In this document: piece by piece, positions 5,203 through 54,215 of the stretch | Numbering within the stretch: position 1 is the stretch's first letter | How the letters are laid out: every line of letters begins with the position of its first letter | Assembly: GCF_000747095.1 (NCBI RefSeq) | Contig: NZ_JQGL01000017.1 | Coordinates: 1 to 57,165, forward strand | Direction of reading: 5' to 3' | Length of the DNA stretch: 57,165 nt | Origin: Sulfuricurvum sp. MLSB | GTDB taxonomy: Bacteria > Campylobacterota > Campylobacteria > Campylobacterales > Sulfurimonadaceae | Notes under the pieces: model-generated | The model's input: only the letters and a program-made list of their open reading frames with translations | The model's database searches: none | What the model was told of the DNA's origin: nothing | Program-made: the position numbers and the translations under genes

Positions 5203-6603
5203 TTGCACATCTCGCTGATGCTGTACGGGTTCTTTCCGCTGCTGCTGTCGCTGCTGCCGTTTGCGCTGTTCGAAAAAGAGGGGGTGCTGAGCGAAGCGGG
5301 CGTAGCCCATCTGCGCCGCTATTTTGTCGTGTGGAACCTCTTTTTGCTTTTTATGAGCATGGCGATCCTTTTCGGGAATATTCGGGGCTTGCCGTTTTAC
5401 GATTTCCCCTACGAGCTCAACTTCCTTTTGGCGTTCAGCGGCGTCTTTTATCTGCTGGCCCTTATCGACGCACTTCGCCGTTACGAAAAGCGTCCGCTGT
5501 GGGTCAATGTTTCGCTGGCAGCCGTGATCGCGGCACCCATTGCACTGGTGGTTTTGATGAACCCCCAGTACGGGCAGGTGGAAAAGAGTCTCATCGGACC
5601 GCACGGGGACAACACGCTGGGGATGAGTTTTACCCTCATTCCGATTTATTACCTGCTTATCAAACTTAGCGCAGAGAAACCGTTTGTCCCCCGATGGCAT
5701 TGGCTGTGGATCGTTCCGCTTTCGGGTTATGCCCTTTCGCTTGTTATCCGAAACTTTTTTCACCCTCTCAGCTACAATGAGGAGTGGTTCTTCCAGTACC
5801 TGACCCTGCTGTATCTGCCGCTGTTGTGGGTGTGGCTGCGGGATGCCGGGGTGAGCTTTGCGCGCAATCCGTATCTGATCCTCTCGATAGCCGCGTTCGT
5901 ATTCGTCGATGTGGAGGGGAACATCCTCTTTATCCCCGAGTTGCGCACTCTGATTCACCGCAATGACCTTGTTGTGGGGCATGCGCATATCGCAATGGGG
6001 CTGGGAGTCGCGTTTATGGCGTTGGCCATCGCCCATCATCTGCTTCCCCATTTCTTCCGCCGTATTCACGCGCTTGCGTGGACGGCGCTGATGGCGGTAA
6101 TGGCGGGAGTGCTGAGTATCGCCGGATTGATCGAAGCGGGATTGATCGCGGGGAGTATCGAGCCGTTGCTGCTCATCCGTGCGATTGCCGGCGGTGTCAT
6201 GTTGCTTATGGTATCGGCAATTCTCTATGAGCGGATCGCACTGCGCTTTGATACGCCGCTGAAGCTCTATCACGGGATCGGTTTTGCCAGCGATGCCGGA
6301 GGCGGCATCGTACTTCTGATAGCCGGAGGAATCCTTTTCGAACAGCTCGGATTTCATTTCAGCGGAACGTACGAGTACGTTGTTTTCGCCTTTATGATTG
6401 GGACGGGGTTGGCTCATTGGGCGGGATTGCACGGCGATTCTGAGCGTTTTGCCGGCCTCAGCGCGCAGATTCGCGCCGTGTGCGCTTCGGTTTTTGCCGC
6501 GCTGTATATGGCCGGAACGCTGGACGGAATTGCCCTGCTGGTCGCTTTGTATGACGGTATGTTTGCCCTTGTGTATTGGCTCTTTTTACGGGGGCGCGCG
6601 TGA
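5203..6603 (+). CDS. Multi-pass membrane protein, diverged haem-copper-oxidase subunit I-like
   Basis: At least 466 residues and about twelve predicted membrane segments. A central motif, GHAHIAMGLG...AHHLLP, resembles the CcoN (cbb3 oxidase) helix with G-H-N-A-V-G-F...Y-F-x-P, so a haem- or copper-binding role is possible. The other ligands are not obvious, so this is a diverged relative at best. The open frame only has TTG 5203 or ATG 5218 as starts, both inside what looks like the first helix. A more natural N-terminus exists in another frame from TTG 5112 (LLKKFITDEL). Removing one C from the CCC at 5141-5143 joins it to FYWSGFYSQTLLSPERARSL and then this frame. The true gene therefore probably starts near 5112 and is frameshifted in this sequence. 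Confidence 0.55.
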   Translation: MHISLMLYGFFPLLLSLLPFALFEKEGVLSEAGVAHLRRYFVVWNLFLLFMSMAILFGNIRGLPFYDFPYELNFLLAFSGVFYLLALIDALRRYEKRPLWVNVSLAAVIAAPIALVVLMNPQYGQVEKSLIGPHGDNTLGMSFTLIPIYYLLIKLSAEKPFVPRWHWLWIVPLSGYALSLVIRNFFHPLSYNEEWFFQYLTLLYLPLLWVWLRDAGVSFARNPYLILSIAAFVFVDVEGNILFIPELRTLIHRNDLVVGHAHIAMGLGVAFMALAIAHHLLPHFFRRIHALAWTALMAVMAGVLSIAGLIEAGLIAGSIEPLLLIRAIAGGVMLLMVSAILYERIALRFDTPLKLYHGIGFASDAGGGIVLLIAGGILFEQLGFHFSGTYEYVVFAFMIGTGLAHWAGLHGDSERFAGLSAQIRAVCASVFAALYMAGTLDGIALLVALYDGMFALVYWLFLRGRA

Positions 6604-9026: not shown

Positions 9027-9914
9027 ATGGAACAGTTTGCATTTATCATCGGATTGCTGTTGATCGGTGTGCTGCTTCAAAAGGCTCCCGCCCCCGCCGA
9101 TTTTTCCAAAAGCCTCAATTTTTTCGTCATCTACGTCTCGCTCCCCGCAACCGTACTTCTGCAGGTCCCGAAAATCCATTTCGATCTCTCCGCACTCGGG
9201 GTGGTTATCGTGCCGTGGCTGCTGCTGCCGATTATGGCGGGAATCGTTATTGCCATGACCCGAAACCATCCGCTTCATGTCAGGGCGGCGCTGCTGCTTG
9301 TCGTTCCGTTGGGGAATACGTCGTTTGTCGGAATTCCGATCGTCCATACACTGCTGGGAGAAGGTGCCATCCCCTACGTACTGATGTACGATCAGTTCGG
9401 GACGTTTTTGATGCTCTCCCTGTACGGCAGCGCGGTAATCGCCCGTTATGAAAGCGGCATTTTTCACAAACGGCTGATCTTGAAAAAACTGCTTCTCTTT
9501 CCGCCGTTTTTGATTCTGCTGTTTGCTCTGGGGTGGGGGGAGATGCCGCAGGCTGCACAGCCTTATCTTCAGACGCTTTCCTCTACACTGGTGCCTCTGG
9601 CACTCGTATCGGTGGGCTATTCGCTCAAGTTCGGCGGAGAAATCGATTATCCCCTCTTTATGAAAGCGCTGGGGCTGAAACTGCTTGTGATGCCGCTGAT
9701 TGCATTCGGTATTTTAGCCGCATTAGGCACGGATCTGCCGGCGCTCAAAACAGGGGTGCTGGAATCGGGAATGCCCGCGATGATAACGGCCGGAGCGCTT
9801 GCGATCGCGTCCGGATTTGCCCCGGCACTCAGCGCGGCGTTGGTGGGGTATGGGATTGTCGTCTCGCTCGTCACGCTGCCGCTGATCGCGTATCTGATGG
9901 AGAGGCTGCTTTAG
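9027..9914 (+). CDS. AEC-family (auxin efflux carrier-like) permease
   Basis: A 295-residue inner-membrane protein with about ten hydrophobic segments arranged as two five-helix repeats, as in the bile-acid/auxin-efflux carrier superfamily. Motifs in keeping with this family are LVVPLGNTSFVGIPIV in the first half and ESGMPAMITAGALA in the second, where the unwound crossing helices lie. ATG 9027 is chosen because the AAAAAAGGG ribosome site sits six bases upstream; ATG 9021 is too close to it. The substrate is likely a small organic acid, but cannot be deduced. The stop overlaps the stop of the convergent CDGSH gene. Confidence 0.8.
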   Translation: MEQFAFIIGLLLIGVLLQKAPAPADFSKSLNFFVIYVSLPATVLLQVPKIHFDLSALGVVIVPWLLLPIMAGIVIAMTRNHPLHVRAALLLVVPLGNTSFVGIPIVHTLLGEGAIPYVLMYDQFGTFLMLSLYGSAVIARYESGIFHKRLILKKLLLFPPFLILLFALGWGEMPQAAQPYLQTLSSTLVPLALVSVGYSLKFGGEIDYPLFMKALGLKLLVMPLIAFGILAALGTDLPALKTGVLESGMPAMITAGALAIASGFAPALSAALVGYGIVVSLVTLPLIAYLMERLL

Positions 9915-10147
9915 GGCACCTGCTGATGCGATCCGTCGCAGTAGGGTTTACGTCCCGAGCGGCCGCAGCGGCAGAGCCATTTGTCGGTATCGACGTCGAC
10001 GGAGAATTTGATCGGTGTTTTCCCGGTTCCTTCGTGGCTTCCGTCACAAAACGGGAAGCTTTCGGACAGGCCGCACGTGCAGTACGCGTATTCGACATTG
10101 GCGTCCAAGGATGCTTTAAACGGTTCGTTCTGGAACTTGGTGTCCAT
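9911..10147 (-). CDS. Double CDGSH iron-sulfur protein
   Basis: A 78-residue protein with two CDGSH iron-sulfur motifs. The first has Cys23, Cys25, Cys34 and His38 (CTCGLSESFPFCDGSH). The second has Cys59, Cys61, Cys70 and His74 (CRCGRSGRKPYCDGSH). Each would bind one [2Fe-2S] cluster through three cysteines and a histidine, as in mitoNEET/Miner2. No targeting signal is present, so it is cytoplasmic. Bacterial double-CDGSH proteins are linked to iron-sulfur or redox homeostasis, but the exact partner is unknown. Its stop overlaps the stop of the convergent AEC permease by 3 bases. Confidence 0.9.
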   Translation of the reverse strand: MDTKFQNEPFKASLDANVEYAYCTCGLSESFPFCDGSHEGTGKTPIKFSVDVDTDKWLCRCGRSGRKPYCDGSHQQVP

Positions 10148-47480: not shown

Positions 47481-48863
47481 ATGGTAGTTACTCGTTTCGC
47501 CCCCAGCCCGACGGGGTATTTGCACATCGGCGGATTACGGACGGCGCTGTTGAGCTATTTGTGGGCCAGACGTAATAACGGGAAGTTTTTGCTCCGTATC
47601 GAAGACACCGATTTCAGCCGTAACGACGAAGCGGCGGCACGAGCGATTGTCGAGGCGTTCAAATGGGTCGGATTGGAGCACGACGGAGAGATCGAATACC
47701 AGTCTTCGCGCTTGGCTATTTACCAAGAATACGCCCAGAAGCTTCTGGATGAGGGGAAAGCGTATCGCTGCTACATGTCCAAAGAGGAGCTGGAAGCGCT
47801 GCGCGAAGAGCAGAGCGCGCGCAAAGAGCGCCCCAAATACGACAACCGCTACCGCGATTTTACGGGGACCCCTCCCGAGGGGAGAGAGAGCGTTATCCGT
47901 ATCAAAGCTCCGCTGAGCGGCACGTTGACAGTGCATGACGGGGTCAAAGGAGATGTCGTCTTCAATGTCGAGGATATCCTTGATGATTTCATCATTGCAC
48001 GTGCCGACGGTACTCCGACGTACAATTTCGTCGTTGCCGTGGACGATGCGCTGATGGGAGTGACCGACGTTATCCGAGGGGACGATCACCTCTCCAACAC
48101 CCCCAAACAGATGGTCGTTTACGACGCGCTCGGTTTTCCGATCCCGAAATTTTTCCATGTGCCGATGATTCACAACCACGAGGGGAAAAAACTCTCCAAA
48201 CGCGACGGCGCGACCGACGTCATGATGTACAAACAGCTGGGCTACACTCCCGAGGCGCTGCTGAACTTTCTGGTTCGTCTGGGATGGAGCCACGGAGACC
48301 AGGAGATTTTCTCGCTGAGCGAGATGCTCGAGCTCTTCGATCCGAGCGACATCAACCGCTCCGCGTCGGTGTACAACGTCGAAAAGCTCGACTGGCTCAA
48401 CAGCCATTATCTCAAAAACATGCCGAACGAGAAACTCTGCGAACTTCTTGAATTTCACGGCGTGGTACTGATCAGCCATGACAAACGGGAGATTTTGCTT
48501 GACGCGGTCAAAGAGCGTGCCAAAACGCTTGTCGAGATGGCGATATTGATCGGAGAGATTCTGGTCCGTCCTGCCGACTATGACGAAGCGGCATTGAAAA
48601 AAGGGTACAAAGAGGACAGTAAAGAGGTATTGGAAAAATTCTGTGCAGCTCTTCAGAGTGCCGAACAACTACATCTCCCCAGCGATTACCATCATGTGAT
48701 GGAACAGGTGGTTTCGGAGCTGGGGATCGGTTTTGGGAAAATCGGCCAGCCGTTGCGGATCGCGCTGATGGGGAAACTCTCAGGCCCCGGTCTGGACAGC
48801 GTCATGGCGATCATCGGAGTGGACGAAACGCTCGCGCGGGTCGAAGCGCTTCTTCAGCGGTAA
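47481..48863 (+). CDS. gltX: Glutamate--tRNA ligase
   Basis: 460 residues from ATG 47481 (AAAAGGAATTTCATC upstream). Class I synthetase: RFAPSPTGYLHIGGLRTALL (HIGH-like), the KMSKS-like loop GKKLSKRDGATDV, and the anticodon-binding C-terminus. The family doublets in epsilonproteobacteria (GltX1/GltX2) raise the possibility that this enzyme charges tRNA-Gln as well or instead; motif inspection alone cannot separate them. Followed by a perfect hairpin terminator at 48877-48896. Confidence 0.95.
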   Translation: MVVTRFAPSPTGYLHIGGLRTALLSYLWARRNNGKFLLRIEDTDFSRNDEAAARAIVEAFKWVGLEHDGEIEYQSSRLAIYQEYAQKLLDEGKAYRCYMSKEELEALREEQSARKERPKYDNRYRDFTGTPPEGRESVIRIKAPLSGTLTVHDGVKGDVVFNVEDILDDFIIARADGTPTYNFVVAVDDALMGVTDVIRGDDHLSNTPKQMVVYDALGFPIPKFFHVPMIHNHEGKKLSKRDGATDVMMYKQLGYTPEALLNFLVRLGWSHGDQEIFSLSEMLELFDPSDINRSASVYNVEKLDWLNSHYLKNMPNEKLCELLEFHGVVLISHDKREILLDAVKERAKTLVEMAILIGEILVRPADYDEAALKKGYKEDSKEVLEKFCAALQSAEQLHLPSDYHHVMEQVVSELGIGFGKIGQPLRIALMGKLSGPGLDSVMAIIGVDETLARVEALLQR

Positions 48864-48876
48864 CGCTTTCCTTTTT

Positions 48877-48896
48877 TCGCCCTGTCGGGCGATTTT
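48877..48896 (+). terminator. Rho-independent terminator of gltX
   Basis: TCGCCC-TGTC-GGGCGA hairpin (48877-48892) followed by TTTTAATT, 13 bases after the gltX stop. Confidence 0.75.
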
Positions 48897-48916
48897 AATT
48901 CCCATCGATTCTAAGT

Positions 48917-48922
48917 TATAAT
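48917..48922 (+). promoter_or_regulatory. Candidate -10 element of mntA-hepT
   Basis: Exact TATAAT 32 bases before the mntA ATG, downstream of the gltX terminator. Confidence 0.5.
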
Positions 48923-48954
48923 AGCTTTACTATTTTCTATCGAAAGGGTCATAG

Positions 48955-49245
48955 ATGCGGTTGCAACGTTCTGAAATCGATATTATCAAATCAACGTTGC
49001 ATGAAATAATTGACGATGCAAAGATTTTTTTGTTCGGAAGTCGAACCGATGATACCAAAAAGGGGGGAGACATCGACCTCTTTGTCCAAACCCGCAAATC
49101 CATCACGCTAAAAGACGAACTCAAAATCCTCTCTCGCATGGAGCTTCGGGGGATAGGACGCAAAATCGATCTGATTATTCAAACCCCGCAAACCCCTCCT
49201 CAGAAACTTTTTGAAACGATACTAAAAGAGGGGATATTGCTATGA
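48955..49245 (+). CDS. mntA: MntA-type nucleotidyltransferase antitoxin
   Basis: 96 residues, a minimal nucleotidyltransferase: FLFGSRTDDTKKGGDIDLFV holds the G-S-x9-D-x-D catalytic motif, and the third acid is in RKIDLIIQTP. MntA proteins add AMP groups to a tyrosine of the cognate HepT toxin and neutralise it. The gene overlaps hepT by 4 bases (ATGA). Its position next to a restriction-modification cassette and its type suggest a defence or stability role, but the function here is inferred from the family. Confidence 0.9.
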   Translation: MRLQRSEIDIIKSTLHEIIDDAKIFLFGSRTDDTKKGGDIDLFVQTRKSITLKDELKILSRMELRGIGRKIDLIIQTPQTPPQKLFETILKEGILL

Positions 49246-49691
49246 TGCAAGAGATTATAGAAAAAATCCATCTACACCTGCACCGTGCAAAAAGTGCAGT
49301 CAATGAGATCAAAGCGTGGAGCCATATCGATTCGGGAGTTTTTGAAGATTTTGAAAAAATCAAAACGATCGATACCTTCATTTATCGTTTTATCAAGCTT
49401 CAAGACATGATGGGAGAGAAGCTGTTTCGGATCTTTTTGGACGAAATTGGCGAATACCGCGACAATATGTCTCTTTTGGATATTTTAGACAAACTGGAAA
49501 AGCTCGAAATTATCGAAAACGGCGAAGAGTGGATGACCTATCGAAAGCTCCGCAATAAGCTCACCCATGAATATCCGAGCAATGAAAACGAGATCGTCGA
49601 GGGGATCAAACTCTCCATCGAGGTATTTGGTGAGATTGAAAAGATTTTGGAAAATATCGAAAGCTACAAAGAGCGGCGTAAGCTTATTTAG
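49242..49691 (+). CDS. hepT: HepT-type HEPN toxin
   Basis: 149 residues, an all-helical HEPN domain protein. The catalytic RNase motif R-x4-H-x-Y is present as RNKLTHEY, where Tyr is the residue adenylylated by MntA. Upstream segments KTIDTFIYRFIKLQDMMGEK and MSLLDILDKLEKLEIIENGE are typical for HepT of the nucleotidyltransferase-associated type. Its stop lies just 20 bases before the first 30-bp repeat, and the repeat's hairpin terminates this operon. Confidence 0.9.
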   Translation: MMQEIIEKIHLHLHRAKSAVNEIKAWSHIDSGVFEDFEKIKTIDTFIYRFIKLQDMMGEKLFRIFLDEIGEYRDNMSLLDILDKLEKLEIIENGEEWMTYRKLRNKLTHEYPSNENEIVEGIKLSIEVFGEIEKILENIESYKERRKLI

Positions 49692-49710
49692 CCGCGACGA
49701 ATTTTTCCGA

Positions 49711-49735
49711 GAGAGGGGTTTAGCCCTCTCTTTTT
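49711..49735 (+). terminator. Terminator of mntA-hepT (within repeat copy 1)
   Basis: GAGAGGG-GTTTAG-CCCTCTC hairpin followed by TTTTT, 20 bases after the hepT stop. It also forms most of the direct repeat, and on the other strand it encodes part of the ancestral MqnA tail. Confidence 0.75.
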
Positions 49736-49741
49736 CGCTTC
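49712..49741 (+). repeat. 30-bp direct repeat, copy 1 (left edge of R-M cassette)
   Basis: Identical, base for base, to 53553-53582. On the minus strand it encodes the ten residues EAKKRGLNPS, continuing to LGKIRRG and a stop at 49688-49690. This looks like the original C-terminus of MqnA, now separated from its gene by the cassette. The copy also contains the hepT terminator. Confidence 0.9.
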
Positions 49742-49750
49742 AAAAAAATC

Positions 49751-52700
49751 TTACAGATATTTTTTTAAAATTCCTTCTTTTTGTTTTGGAATCTCTGCGA
49801 TTTGAGTCTCCAAAAGAGCTATTTGCGCTTCAATTTTTTCTATTTTAGAAACGATTTTTTGCTGTTCGGAAAGTGGTGGAACATTTATTTCTATTGGTTT
49901 TAAATTTATTACAGAAAGTCCAGGTTGAGCTGTTCCAGTAGCATATTGATTCAAATTCATAGAAACTAATTTGTGGTGTAGCCAATTTATATCAATATCA
50001 TTTAAAGGTTTTGCAACTAAAGCATGTTCTGTTGCGTGAAATTTACCTTCAACTAAATGAACATTACCGCATAAAGCACCTTGTCTACCAACTAAAGAAT
50101 ATTTTCCTTCATGAGTAAAAGTTTTTACATAACCTCTCAAACCATTTCCTCCATAACAAGGGAATGAATTTTCTATTTTCTCTTTACTAATATTTCCAAC
50201 TTTTACAAAATCTCCTGCTTTCAACTTACAAACTTCATCAAACCTTTTTATAACAGTTTCATTATTAGAACTAAAAATTTCGTTTGATTTTGATTTCAAA
50301 CTCTCAATTTCCTCTTTCGCTTTCTTCTCTTTCGCTTCTAAAACTGCAATTTCATTTACAATTTTTTGTTGAATGTCGAGTGGTGGAAGTGGTATTTTTA
50401 AAGAGTTAAAAGTTTCAATTTCAAGATTTTTTTGTGCAACACCTTGACCACACAAATAAACTCTCTCTTGATTTAAGAATAAATATTGATTTAAGTAATT
50501 TTGATTTAGAACAGATGAATCGGATGTGTTTAGAGTTAATCCTGAATCATTTAGGAAGAATTTTCCATATACATACCTGACACATTTTGGTGACATCCCA
50601 AATCTTGAAATTATAAAAACATCTTCTCTATTATAATCGTTTGATTTGAAAGTTTCTCCTCCGCCTCCATATACAGGGTAAACACTGCCTTGTGCAGTTT
50701 TTTTTACAATGCGAGTTCCATAGTCAATAGTTGAAATTTCACCCAGTCTTTTTAGTTGCCATTTGCTTTCAATTTTTACTTTTTTTTTAACCGAAAGCGA
50801 AATATTTTTTTCAAACTCCACTCGATCAAAAGTTAGCATATCTACCAAATTATGTCTAGTAACATTGTTTTGAATACTCTCATGTATTGGGCTATCAAAA
50901 TCACCCTCGAATGCTTTGTAGATATAAGTACTTGCTTTTGTTGGATTGTCAAAAATATTAGAGTCAAAGAGTTGCGTGCACTCATCTATACTTTTGCCTC
51001 TTTGTATAGGATGAATCCCTTCACTTCCTCTACGGTTACTAAATTCATACCCTAAAAAGCGTTTTTCTGCATCTTTTTCACCACTTTTTATCAGTATTAC
51101 TTTTTGTGGATAGGTGAGAATAAAATAGTAGAGTTTTTCTGCTTCTCGCTCTAGTAATAGATTCCAAAACTCTTTCTCATTTTTGGCTTTTAGTTTTTTG
51201 CGATATTCGGTATAAATTTCATGTTTTGTTATCTTTTCATTGGGTTCACATTTGAGCATAGATATATAATCATCAAATGAAATGGCTCCCCACACATAAT
51301 TTATATATTTAGTTACTGGTTTTTCAACGCCACCCAGTGTAACATCTTGATATACACTAAAAAACTTTTCAATAGCTATTTTGAGATTGATACTGTCGTA
51401 GTTATTTCTTCTTCGCATAAATAAAGTGACAGTATTGGTTCCTGTTGCCATAAAGGTATTGGAACCGAGTTCCGCAATAGCAATAATTTCAAAATATTGC
51501 AAAATTATTTCTCTGGTTTTTGTGTAAATTCCAGTATTACTAAGTATTGAGCTTGGTAGAATAATACCTGTTACTCCGCCATCTTTGAGTAATTGTTTGG
51601 TTCGCTCCACAAATAAGCATTCAATCTCTGAGCTATTGTCTGTGAGCTTATCATAAAGTTCAAAATCATTTTCTCTATAGTATTCACGTGATGCATTTTT
51701 AAATGCAGATACAGAATAAGGGGGATTTGAAACCAATATTTCAAATTGTTTATTTTCTTGGCAAAAGTCTTTGTCTATTTCGTTTAATTTTCCTTTGTAA
51801 TCGCTGTGTTTGAAATTGGATAATCCATCAGAATGCATAACGTTTGCCAGCCCATCTCCATGTAGGTAACAACCAACTTTCCCAACTTTTACTAATCGGT
51901 AATCTTTTTCTATGCCATAAACATATTGTGATGCCCAATCAAAATGTCTAATCTTGGAAACATCAATAAAACTTTTTGCTTCTGATTTTAATTTGCTTGT
52001 GTCTGTATTTAAAAGTAATCGCTGAATTTCGTGCATACTCTCAGTGAGAAAATGTCCACTTCCTGCGGCATAATCTATGATAAAAGGGAGTAAATCATCT
52101 TTTTTACCAGATTTCAATTTGTCTTCTACCATTTTGTCAATAGGTAAACTTTTTATAATAAATTGTGCAATAGGAACAGGTGTAAAAAATTGTCCAGACT
52201 CTTGTTTAAGTCCGGTTGTTAAAAGTAATTCAAAAAAATCAGATAGATACTGTTGTTTTTGAGTGTAGCGTATTTTAAAACCTTGTAATAGTTCTACAAC
52301 TTCTTTGACAACTTTTGCATTTTCCAAAAATGATTTTTGATCATAAACTTCTTTAATAGCAAATTCATTATTTTTTTCTAAACGTAGTCTTGCAATCTCA
52401 GTTTTAAGTGATTTTTTTAATTGTTCATCCCCGCTAAAGAGCGATGCATATTTTGAATCGAAATCTTCATCTGAAAAGTCTGTTACATTTTTATCTAAAA
52501 AATCTTTCATTCCATTTTTATATAAATCAGTCAATCTAAGCTGAAAAGAAACATTATCGTCTTTGCCTTCAATCCATTGAAAATCTAACTCTTCGTCTGT
52601 ATTATGTTTTGATTTTTCATCATAAATTTTACAAAGAAATAGTGTAAAAATTTTATTAAAAGCATTTGGCTTGTCTGAAACTACATTGTGACGAAGGATT

Positions 52701-53392
52701 TCAAGAAAACGATTGAAAATAAAGCTACTATCTTCAGGTCTTATCTCTTCTAGCTCATTTATAGTTAATGCTTTGCTTTCAAAATTATAAGGGTTGACCC
52801 AAGGGTCAAATACCCCATTGTCTTTTGTAAGTTTATTCCATTTGTCATAGAAATCTTTTACATCACCCGTTTTATAGTCGTCTTCAATTTTTACAATCTC
52901 ATTTTTATATACGAGTGTATCGGCTTTTAGCTCGGATGCATAAAGCATAATAATATCTGCATTGTTACTAAATTTAAAGTAAGTAAAAAGTTGCCCGCCA
53001 TCTTTTTTCATACGGTTAAATTCTTTATCGAACTCTTTTCCATAGGTTTTGCATTCGATTAATAAATATTCAGTTCCATCATCGTGAGTGACACAAATAT
53101 CAAGTCTTCCTGAAAAACCATGTCCAGCAGGATATACTTTTTCTAATTGAATATTTTCAGGCTTATATCCTCTTTCAAGTAAACGATTTACACACTCTAA
53201 AACAACAAAATCTTCTGGTTTTACAATATTTTGTGTAAATTTATCATACACTTTAATTTTACCGCCATAGTTGATAGTATGGTTTTTTATATCTATATCT
53301 ATGAAGTAGTTGTCTTGATATGATTTTGTGTATATGTCGATAGTATTTTCTTTTGGTCGAAAGCCTATGGTAAAAAATAAATTTGTGTCCAT
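49751..53392 (-). CDS. Fused restriction-modification-specificity protein (type IIG/type I-like R-M-S)
   Basis: 1213 residues in one chain. Residues about 85-140 form a PD-(D/E)XK nuclease: Asp98 in FSGRLDI, Glu113-x-Lys115 in LIECKTY, and Gln134 in GGQLFTYFK. Residues about 380-720 are an N6-adenine methyltransferase like HsdM (ESGQFFTP; motif I AAGSGHF about 442-448; motif IV NPPY at 556-559). The C-terminus has two target-recognition domains (about 890-1030 and 1070-1210), each ending in a PPL-x-x-Q-Q-K-I helix, as in HsdS. All catalytic residues seen are intact. Base composition is clearly AT-rich compared with its neighbours, so the gene was probably acquired recently. SD AGGAGG lies 8 bases before the ATG. 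Flanked by a 30-bp direct repeat. Confidence 0.92.
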   Translation of the reverse strand: MDTNLFFTIGFRPKENTIDIYTKSYQDNYFIDIDIKNHTINYGGKIKVYDKFTQNIVKPEDFVVLECVNRLLERGYKPENIQLEKVYPAGHGFSGRLDICVTHDDGTEYLLIECKTYGKEFDKEFNRMKKDGGQLFTYFKFSNNADIIMLYASELKADTLVYKNEIVKIEDDYKTGDVKDFYDKWNKLTKDNGVFDPWVNPYNFESKALTINELEEIRPEDSSFIFNRFLEILRHNVVSDKPNAFNKIFTLFLCKIYDEKSKHNTDEELDFQWIEGKDDNVSFQLRLTDLYKNGMKDFLDKNVTDFSDEDFDSKYASLFSGDEQLKKSLKTEIARLRLEKNNEFAIKEVYDQKSFLENAKVVKEVVELLQGFKIRYTQKQQYLSDFFELLLTTGLKQESGQFFTPVPIAQFIIKSLPIDKMVEDKLKSGKKDDLLPFIIDYAAGSGHFLTESMHEIQRLLLNTDTSKLKSEAKSFIDVSKIRHFDWASQYVYGIEKDYRLVKVGKVGCYLHGDGLANVMHSDGLSNFKHSDYKGKLNEIDKDFCQENKQFEILVSNPPYSVSAFKNASREYYRENDFELYDKLTDNSSEIECLFVERTKQLLKDGGVTGIILPSSILSNTGIYTKTREIILQYFEIIAIAELGSNTFMATGTNTVTLFMRRRNNYDSINLKIAIEKFFSVYQDVTLGGVEKPVTKYINYVWGAISFDDYISMLKCEPNEKITKHEIYTEYRKKLKAKNEKEFWNLLLEREAEKLYYFILTYPQKVILIKSGEKDAEKRFLGYEFSNRRGSEGIHPIQRGKSIDECTQLFDSNIFDNPTKASTYIYKAFEGDFDSPIHESIQNNVTRHNLVDMLTFDRVEFEKNISLSVKKKVKIESKWQLKRLGEISTIDYGTRIVKKTAQGSVYPVYGGGGETFKSNDYNREDVFIISRFGMSPKCVRYVYGKFFLNDSGLTLNTSDSSVLNQNYLNQYLFLNQERVYLCGQGVAQKNLEIETFNSLKIPLPPLDIQQKIVNEIAVLEAKEKKAKEEIESLKSKSNEIFSSNNETVIKRFDEVCKLKAGDFVKVGNISKEKIENSFPCYGGNGLRGYVKTFTHEGKYSLVGRQGALCGNVHLVEGKFHATEHALVAKPLNDIDINWLHHKLVSMNLNQYATGTAQPGLSVINLKPIEINVPPLSEQQKIVSKIEKIEAQIALLETQIAEIPKQKEGILKKYL

Positions 53393-53400
53393 TTCTTAAG

Positions 53401-53461
53401 CCTCCTCCCTTGATTTATCTATAATATTATAATATCAAAAAATTACTAAAAAATATGACAA
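53401..53461 (-). promoter_or_regulatory. Promoter and ribosome site region of the R-M gene
   Basis: AT-rich 139-base gap between the R-M gene and mqnA. A perfect AGGAGG lies at 53401-53406, and a TATAAT at 53426-53431 on the minus strand. A TGACA direct repeat (53456-53460 and 53464-53468) lies upstream. No small control-protein gene is visible in the gap. Confidence 0.5.
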
Positions 53462-53531
53462 TTTGACATATTGAGTTCTCAAAACAAGTAATGTGAGTAC
53501 ATTCATACTCGATAACTTACCATTTTTGTTT

Positions 53532-54215
53532 TTAATAGCGAATTTTACTCAAAGAGGGGTTTAGCCCTCTCTTTTTCGCTTCTCTCACAAACCGCTTATA
53601 CCCTCTCTCCTCTTTCGCATCCACTTTATAGCTAATGAATTTCAGATAGTGGGTGATTTGAGCCGGGGTCAGGCCGCTTTTACGGGAGGCTTCGTTCAAA
53701 ATATAGTACGGAATACGGATTTTGGTTTTGACGAATGCGCGGCTGAGGCGTTTGAGCTCGTCCGTATGCTCGTGTGTGCACAGAAGGGCAAAGACAAACG
53801 GCAAACCCGTCTTCTCATGCCATACCCTGCCCAGATCGGTGTGTTCGCCTCCGCTGTAATAATAGCGCAGCGCCTTGTCCCCGATCAGTACCTCCCCGTG
53901 GGTCCCGAGTATTTGGGAAAGGCGGTTGGAGGTTGCCGAATCGGCATCGTTTTTCGACAATTCCGCCGGAAGGGACAAAACACTGAGGACTTCACGCTTC
54001 GCGACGATTCCGACGTTGAAATGGGTGCAGTTTTTGGCGGTGATGCTGGAGATAAACGCCGCATCGATCCGCCGCATCGCAAACTCTTGGTTCAGCGCCG
54101 AGGGGACCCCTTTGTGGTGGTGGAGGCTTTGGTGAAATCGGAGCGATCTGGCGTAGCGTTTGATAAAAACATGAAACGGCAGAAGATTCAAAAAATCAAT
54201 TTTTCCGAAAATCAC
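53532..54215 (-). CDS. mqnA: Chorismate dehydratase (futalosine-pathway menaquinone synthesis)
   Basis: 227 residues from GTG 54215 (GAGGGA ribosome site). MqnA features: FGKIDFLNLLPFHVFIKR start, DAAFISSITAK, GDKALRYYYSGGEHTDLGRV and WHEKTGLPFVFALLC. It makes 3-enolpyruvylbenzoate from chorismate, the first step of the futalosine route used by epsilonproteobacteria. The last residues EAKKRGLNPSLSKIRY lie in the second 30-bp repeat. Another version of the tail (ending LGKIRRG) is found at 49688-49741 beyond the R-M gene, which suggests that the 3' end of this gene has been replaced by that of the insert. Shares a compact divergent promoter with moaD. Confidence 0.88.
   Translation of the reverse strand: MIFGKIDFLNLLPFHVFIKRYARSLRFHQSLHHHKGVPSALNQEFAMRRIDAAFISSITAKNCTHFNVGIVAKREVLSVLSLPAELSKNDADSATSNRLSQILGTHGEVLIGDKALRYYYSGGEHTDLGRVWHEKTGLPFVFALLCTHEHTDELKRLSRAFVKTKIRIPYYILNEASRKSGLTPAQITHYLKFISYKVDAKEERGYKRFVREAKKRGLNPSLSKIRY
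53553..53582 (+). repeat. 30-bp direct repeat, copy 2 (right edge of R-M cassette)
   Basis: Identical to 49712-49741. Lies inside mqnA, minus-strand codons for EAKKRGLNPS. Past the identical block, the tail diverges (SKIRY here against GKIRRG in copy 1), while matching bases remain in ATTTT and CGA. The repeat hairpin is preserved. Confidence 0.9.

Follow-up and report, generated by a model that had tools for sequence, protein, structure and literature searches.

We analyzed a window of 57,165 nucleotides (the whole stretch of DNA under study) from the draft genome of Sulfuricurvum sp. MLSB (G000). At the locus described here, gltX, an mntA-like gene and a hepT-like gene on the plus strand are followed by a restriction-modification (R-M) gene and mqnA on the minus strand, and the R-M gene is flanked by two copies of the mqnA 3' end. 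The features are given below. G012 is the genome of a second species, Sulfuricurvum sp. STB_144 (locus L100), and L099 is an R-M locus of a genome from another family (G303).

47484-48863, plus strand: gltX, the ancestral convergent neighbour of mqnA in the genus
48955-49245, plus strand: mntA-like nucleotidyltransferase gene, 96 aa
49242-49691, plus strand: hepT-like gene, 149 aa (Pfam matches under the curated cut-off)
49688-49741, minus strand: copy 1, read as the native mqnA tail left over (EAKKRGLNPSLGKIRRG, then stop); identical block at 49712-49741, single-tail empty sites in relatives
49709-49736, plus strand: intrinsic-terminator-like hairpin of hepT inside copy 1, a 9-pair stem followed by a T run
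49751-53392, minus strand: Type IIG R-M-S gene, 1213 aa, assigned by domain and motif evidence
53393-53531, minus strand: R-M promoter region and spacer; the mqnA-proximal part (~53473-53531) is common to G012 and absent in L099
53532-53582, minus strand: copy 2, read as the rebuilt mqnA tail (EAKKRGLNPSLSKIRY, then stop); identical block at 53553-53582
within 53532-53582, minus strand: distal part of copy 2, the last ~21 nt, common to G012
53532-54215, minus strand: mqnA (VitK2_biosynth, PF02621), 227 aa

The R-M gene (49751-53392) is the sole substantial ORF between the copies. As the preliminary description had it, an AT-rich R-M-S gene lies there alone: the ORFs between the copies include no transposase, integrase or second gene, and the GC content of the insert is 30.5%, compared with 50.9% for the window. 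The encoded protein contains an HSDR_N-like nuclease part (ECK at residue 113), an N6 methyltransferase part (NPPY at residue 556) and two specificity domains. Judged from these domains and motifs, it is a predicted Type IIG R-M enzyme that unites nuclease-like, methyltransferase and specificity parts in one polypeptide. Known Type IIG enzymes have the same single-polypeptide domain set (PADLOC REase_MTase_IIG; solved relative RM.BsaXI, 8w0p), and nothing is unusual here. A vehicle search among R-M homologues revealed no phage, viral or closely related plasmid homologue; the two plasmid matches were Lactobacillus proteins with ~33% identity. Part of the R-M promoter region (53421-53472, minus strand, TATGTCAAATTGTCATATTTTTTA...) resembles the stretch directly upstream of recA in two other Sulfuricurvum genomes (L157, L160), possibly reflecting a shared promoter or a damage-response operator.

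The 30-bp block AGAGGGGTTTAGCCCTCTCTTTTTCGCTTC is exact at 49712-49741 and 53553-53582 (offset 3841), as had been claimed, and has no other copy in the window. The extended match comprises 44 nt at 91% identity (49698-49741 and 53539-53582). When the 2.1-Mb genome was searched with a 29-nt pattern over the block, allowing up to 3 mismatches, only these two copies at this single locus were matched and no third was found; the reversed pattern, used as a control, gave 0 matches. A chance origin of the repeat was rejected by this search and by the comparison of flanking repeats with other ORFs described below.

Copy 2 is translated in frame with mqnA, restores its reading frame and ends in LSKIRY before the stop, confirming that it is the real end of the gene. 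At the end of hepT, copy 1 can be read as another mqnA tail, also as described: it ends in LGKIRRG, and its stop codon (49688-49690) overlaps that of hepT (49689-49691) by two bases. Because copy 1 also forms a strong intrinsic-terminator-like hairpin, the labels "conserved terminator" and "mqnA tail" both apply to it. The earlier concern that the left copy might be a mere terminator was thus right about the hairpin but wrong about the coding relation to mqnA. In a permissive scan, a terminator-like hairpin was present in the mqnA tail, on the strand of the neighbouring gene, at 34 of 38 genus loci. A conserved terminator alone was rejected as an explanation of copy 1, which reads as an mqnA tail too and is single in relatives.

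Among these 38 mqnA loci of the genus Sulfuricurvum, a second mqnA tail was detected at exactly the two with the R-M gene (G000 and G012), and 36 loci were single-copy. The genomes used for comparison throughout are mostly draft assemblies. The downstream-recurrence score of the tail was 32 in G000, 17 in G012 and at most 12 in the others. The preliminary description had named two tails in R-M-free relatives as the finding that would speak against an insertion; in the relatives, the single tail is joined mostly to gltX, and in G022 and G019 to hepT. In most genomes of the genus, mqnA converges directly on gltX, with stop codons overlapping or nearly so. These single-tail empty sites support the claim that the R-M gene was inserted into the mqnA tail, within the final 30-50 bases of this vitamin K2 synthesis gene, and that the tail was rebuilt by incoming sequence. 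An empty site with a single tail joined to hepT had been predicted and exists in G022 and G019, but the predicted exact IRRG ending was not recovered: mqnA of G022 ends in IRYR before a stop that overlaps the hepT stop.

The 3'-3' junction of gltX and mqnA (window 48863-53532; L032, L033, L035, L036 and L037) is an insertion hotspot, the cargo of which is, depending on the species, mntA-hepT, a ketoacyl-synthase-like gene or a membrane-protein-like gene. Tail duplication by these non-R-M insertions was not seen in the genus loci.

In G012, the same R-M gene is found in the same place, without hepT. The near tail copy of G012 is similar to the one in the window, and the far copy adjoins gltX, as the mqnA tail does at empty sites. 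G000 and G012 are not sister genomes: as placed by identity tables, the nearest relatives are G044 and G054 for G000 and G048 for G012, all with empty sites. The identity of mqnA between the two is 76%. The methyltransferase part of the R-M gene, in contrast, is mostly 90-97% identical at the nucleotide level both to G012 and to L099, where the R-M gene sits between a yajQ-like gene and a molybdopterin oxidoreductase-like gene. Because of this difference, the R-M gene is, by sequence comparison, foreign at the locus; it is mobile between species and families. A specificity domain (window ~50461-50751) is 97-98% identical to that of L099 and unrelated in G012, which by alignment is a domain swap. 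In a 148-contig draft, an insert with strongly different GC content next to a short repeat could be an assembly error, but the same gene order, with diverged copies, is present in the independent draft of G012, which belongs to another species, and comparable arrangements are known from Flavobacterium (see below). We regard such an error as extremely improbable.

Comparison of the two insertions indicates that the far copy in each genome fits its own neighbour and that the tail beside the R-M gene is common to both non-sister species. The distal tail is alike at 22 of 24 nt and the spacer is roughly 70% alike (0 of 2000 shuffles were as good); both are absent from L099. The R-M gene therefore goes with a piece of the mqnA end. 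The 24-nt match is equalled or beaten by 4 of 567 other pairs of similar divergence. Between G000 and G012, mqnA is 78% identical up to its final 54 bp and 89% identical within them. The left breakpoint falls in this stretch, which places the join to the resident gene within the tail. The window differs from its sister genomes in the 3' part of gltX and in the last ~140 bp of mqnA, a pattern suggesting that the junction region was brought in by homologous recombination.

We considered whether the R-M gene stood behind mqnA already in a common ancestor, was mostly lost cleanly and was later homogenised by recombination. Between G000 and G012, the spacer has diverged about as much as the mqnA body, and R-M specificity domains visibly recombine, both in line with such a history. 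However, many independent clean losses across non-sister lineages would be needed, the methyltransferase part is mostly >90% identical even between families, and the G000 copies are still identical over 30 bp. Old vertical inheritance is therefore very unlikely in our judgment.

Direct repeats also flank related R-M genes. Repeats scoring at least 17 were detected around 5 of 46 R-M-family ORFs and around 1 of 173 other ORFs at the same loci, well above chance, with the limit that the two mqnA loci among the repeat-flanked R-M ORFs are not independent of each other. The remaining 41 of the 46 had no flanking repeat; none was found for the R-M homologues in G003, G005 and G042. The single control with a repeat (L114, 9608-10498) is an ORF that immediately follows an R-M gene and has copies of an R-M C-terminal motif on both sides; the repeat matches a motif typical of specificity domains, and the ORF is perhaps a remnant of another such domain. 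At L110, a ~210-bp imperfect direct repeat flanks the R-M gene (~5694-5905 and 9860-10070). As this could be an interspersed repeat, we did not count it as evidence. The repeat at L125/L148 lies 500-700 bp away.

Around distant homologues of the R-M gene, two unrelated Flavobacterium genes show the same arrangement as mqnA. At L115, the last 32 bp of sucB are doubled around the R-M gene, and a second sucB-tail copy was found in none of 59 matched relatives. The near copy is followed by a terminator like that of G439 and the far copy by one like that of G462; each likeness exceeded shuffled controls, and the two terminators thus resemble those of different Flavobacterium lineages. At L104 (F. 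psychrotolerans), the R-M gene lies between two copies of the rng terminator, which is kept behind rng in the genus.

These observations bear on a plain insertion with long target duplication, in which a transposon-like act duplicated 30-45 bp of the mqnA tail, with divergence of the copies afterwards. The block is identical over 30 bp in G000, and long, variable duplications have been reported for R-M systems (PMC3031569, PMC3874152). Yet the R-M-side tail and spacer are common to G012, although the far copies differ and fit local neighbours, and the terminators behind the two L115 copies resemble those of different lineages. Both points count against this explanation because neither is expected from a fresh target copy. 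We consider it unlikely, while giving it a real share of the probability.

There is no sequence relationship among the mqnA, sucB and rng repeats, each of which equals the local gene end, and they have no common attachment core. Thus, one integrase with a fixed attachment site is unlikely. Integrative elements are known to occupy the 3' ends of tRNA or protein genes, e.g., e14 in icd of E. coli, and leave a tail rebuilt from incoming DNA with the old tail on the far side, as at mqnA. In contrast, the mqnA insertion has no integrase, and related R-M insertions have no common core. The likeness to integrative elements at tRNA genes drawn in the preliminary description was therefore not upheld. 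A recombinase acting in trans, with the mqnA-tail hairpin as attachment site, could explain the sharp left breakpoint within the tail and the restored tail, and some Gastranaerophilales homologues adjoin tRNA or tmRNA 3' ends. Against it speak the insert without integrase or second gene, the unrelated flanking repeats, the failure to find a phage, viral or close plasmid relative, and the missing third block copy in the genome. We judge this route to be quite unlikely. The R-M homologues near the 3' ends of tmRNA or tRNA genes in Gastranaerophilales (L107, L110, L113, L116) may reflect integrase-type hotspots.

We see about an even chance that the Type IIG R-M gene, which brings no integrase, entered the mqnA 3' end by recombination. 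The mobile unit would be a solitary, horizontally spreading Type IIG R-M gene, and the incoming DNA would consist of this gene and a short upstream stretch, made up of the mqnA 3' end of another lineage plus the spacer. On the upstream side, it would join the resident mqnA within its last ~50 bp, giving the rebuilt in-frame tail (copy 2). On the downstream side, directly past the R-M stop codon, the join would lie at or just before the resident tail block, so that copy 1 stays beside hepT. An import anchored by homology in the upstream gene is favoured because the R-M-side copy is at least partly the gene end of another lineage, and homologous exchange, one of the options offered beforehand, fits better than the comparison with tRNA-type integrative elements. 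The import may have occurred by homology-facilitated illegitimate recombination, and later spread between species by ordinary homologous recombination. Since the doubled stretch holds the stop overlap of the neighbour and its terminator, mqnA, hepT and the terminator would all stay intact, and selection may have had a role in keeping the insertion. Several observations count against the import: the exact 30-bp identity of the G000 copies is also expected from a true target duplication, most related R-M ORFs have no flanking repeat, and the tail sharing between G000 and G012 amounts to 24 nt plus the ~70% spacer, a match that a few other pairs reach or exceed.

With somewhat less assurance, we propose that the "long target duplication" of R-M genes is in many cases the meeting of donor and recipient versions of a gene end, with the donor's version riding upstream of the R-M gene. 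With the borrowed tail as homology, R-M genes would then be able to enter the corresponding gene of other species. At the window locus, its G012 counterpart and the Flavobacterium sucB locus, one copy can be assigned to the recipient and the other to the R-M gene. This assignment favours recombination with its anchor in the upstream gene and opens the question of entry to testing. A reason for the survival of such repeats is suggested as well: where genomes are packed and convergent genes overlap, a doubled overlap harms neither gene. The locus is a clear case of a known, poorly understood movement of R-M genes without an integrase, in which neither neighbour is damaged.

Homology-facilitated illegitimate recombination in natural transformation resembles the proposed import, in which one side would be anchored by homology, the other would join without long homology, and no element-encoded enzyme would be needed (PMC3240628). 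Its reported products, however, mostly carry deletions (PMC3240628), whereas the recipient tail is doubled here, which also counts against the import. R-M systems are known to insert with long, variable target duplications, for which the cited literature gives no explained mechanism (PMC3031569, PMC3874152, PMC4978471); as referred to in these articles, the observation is traced to Nobusato 2000 and Furuta 2010. The mqnA locus belongs with this known kind of insertion: it has the same direct-repeat flanks, a single copy in R-M-free relatives and no transposase or integrase. It differs in that the repeat is 30-44 bp long, compared with the order of 100 bp quoted for known cases, and in that the target is a gene 3' end overlapping a convergent gene. 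What it appears to add is that the copy beside the R-M gene is, at least in part, the gene-end version of another lineage.
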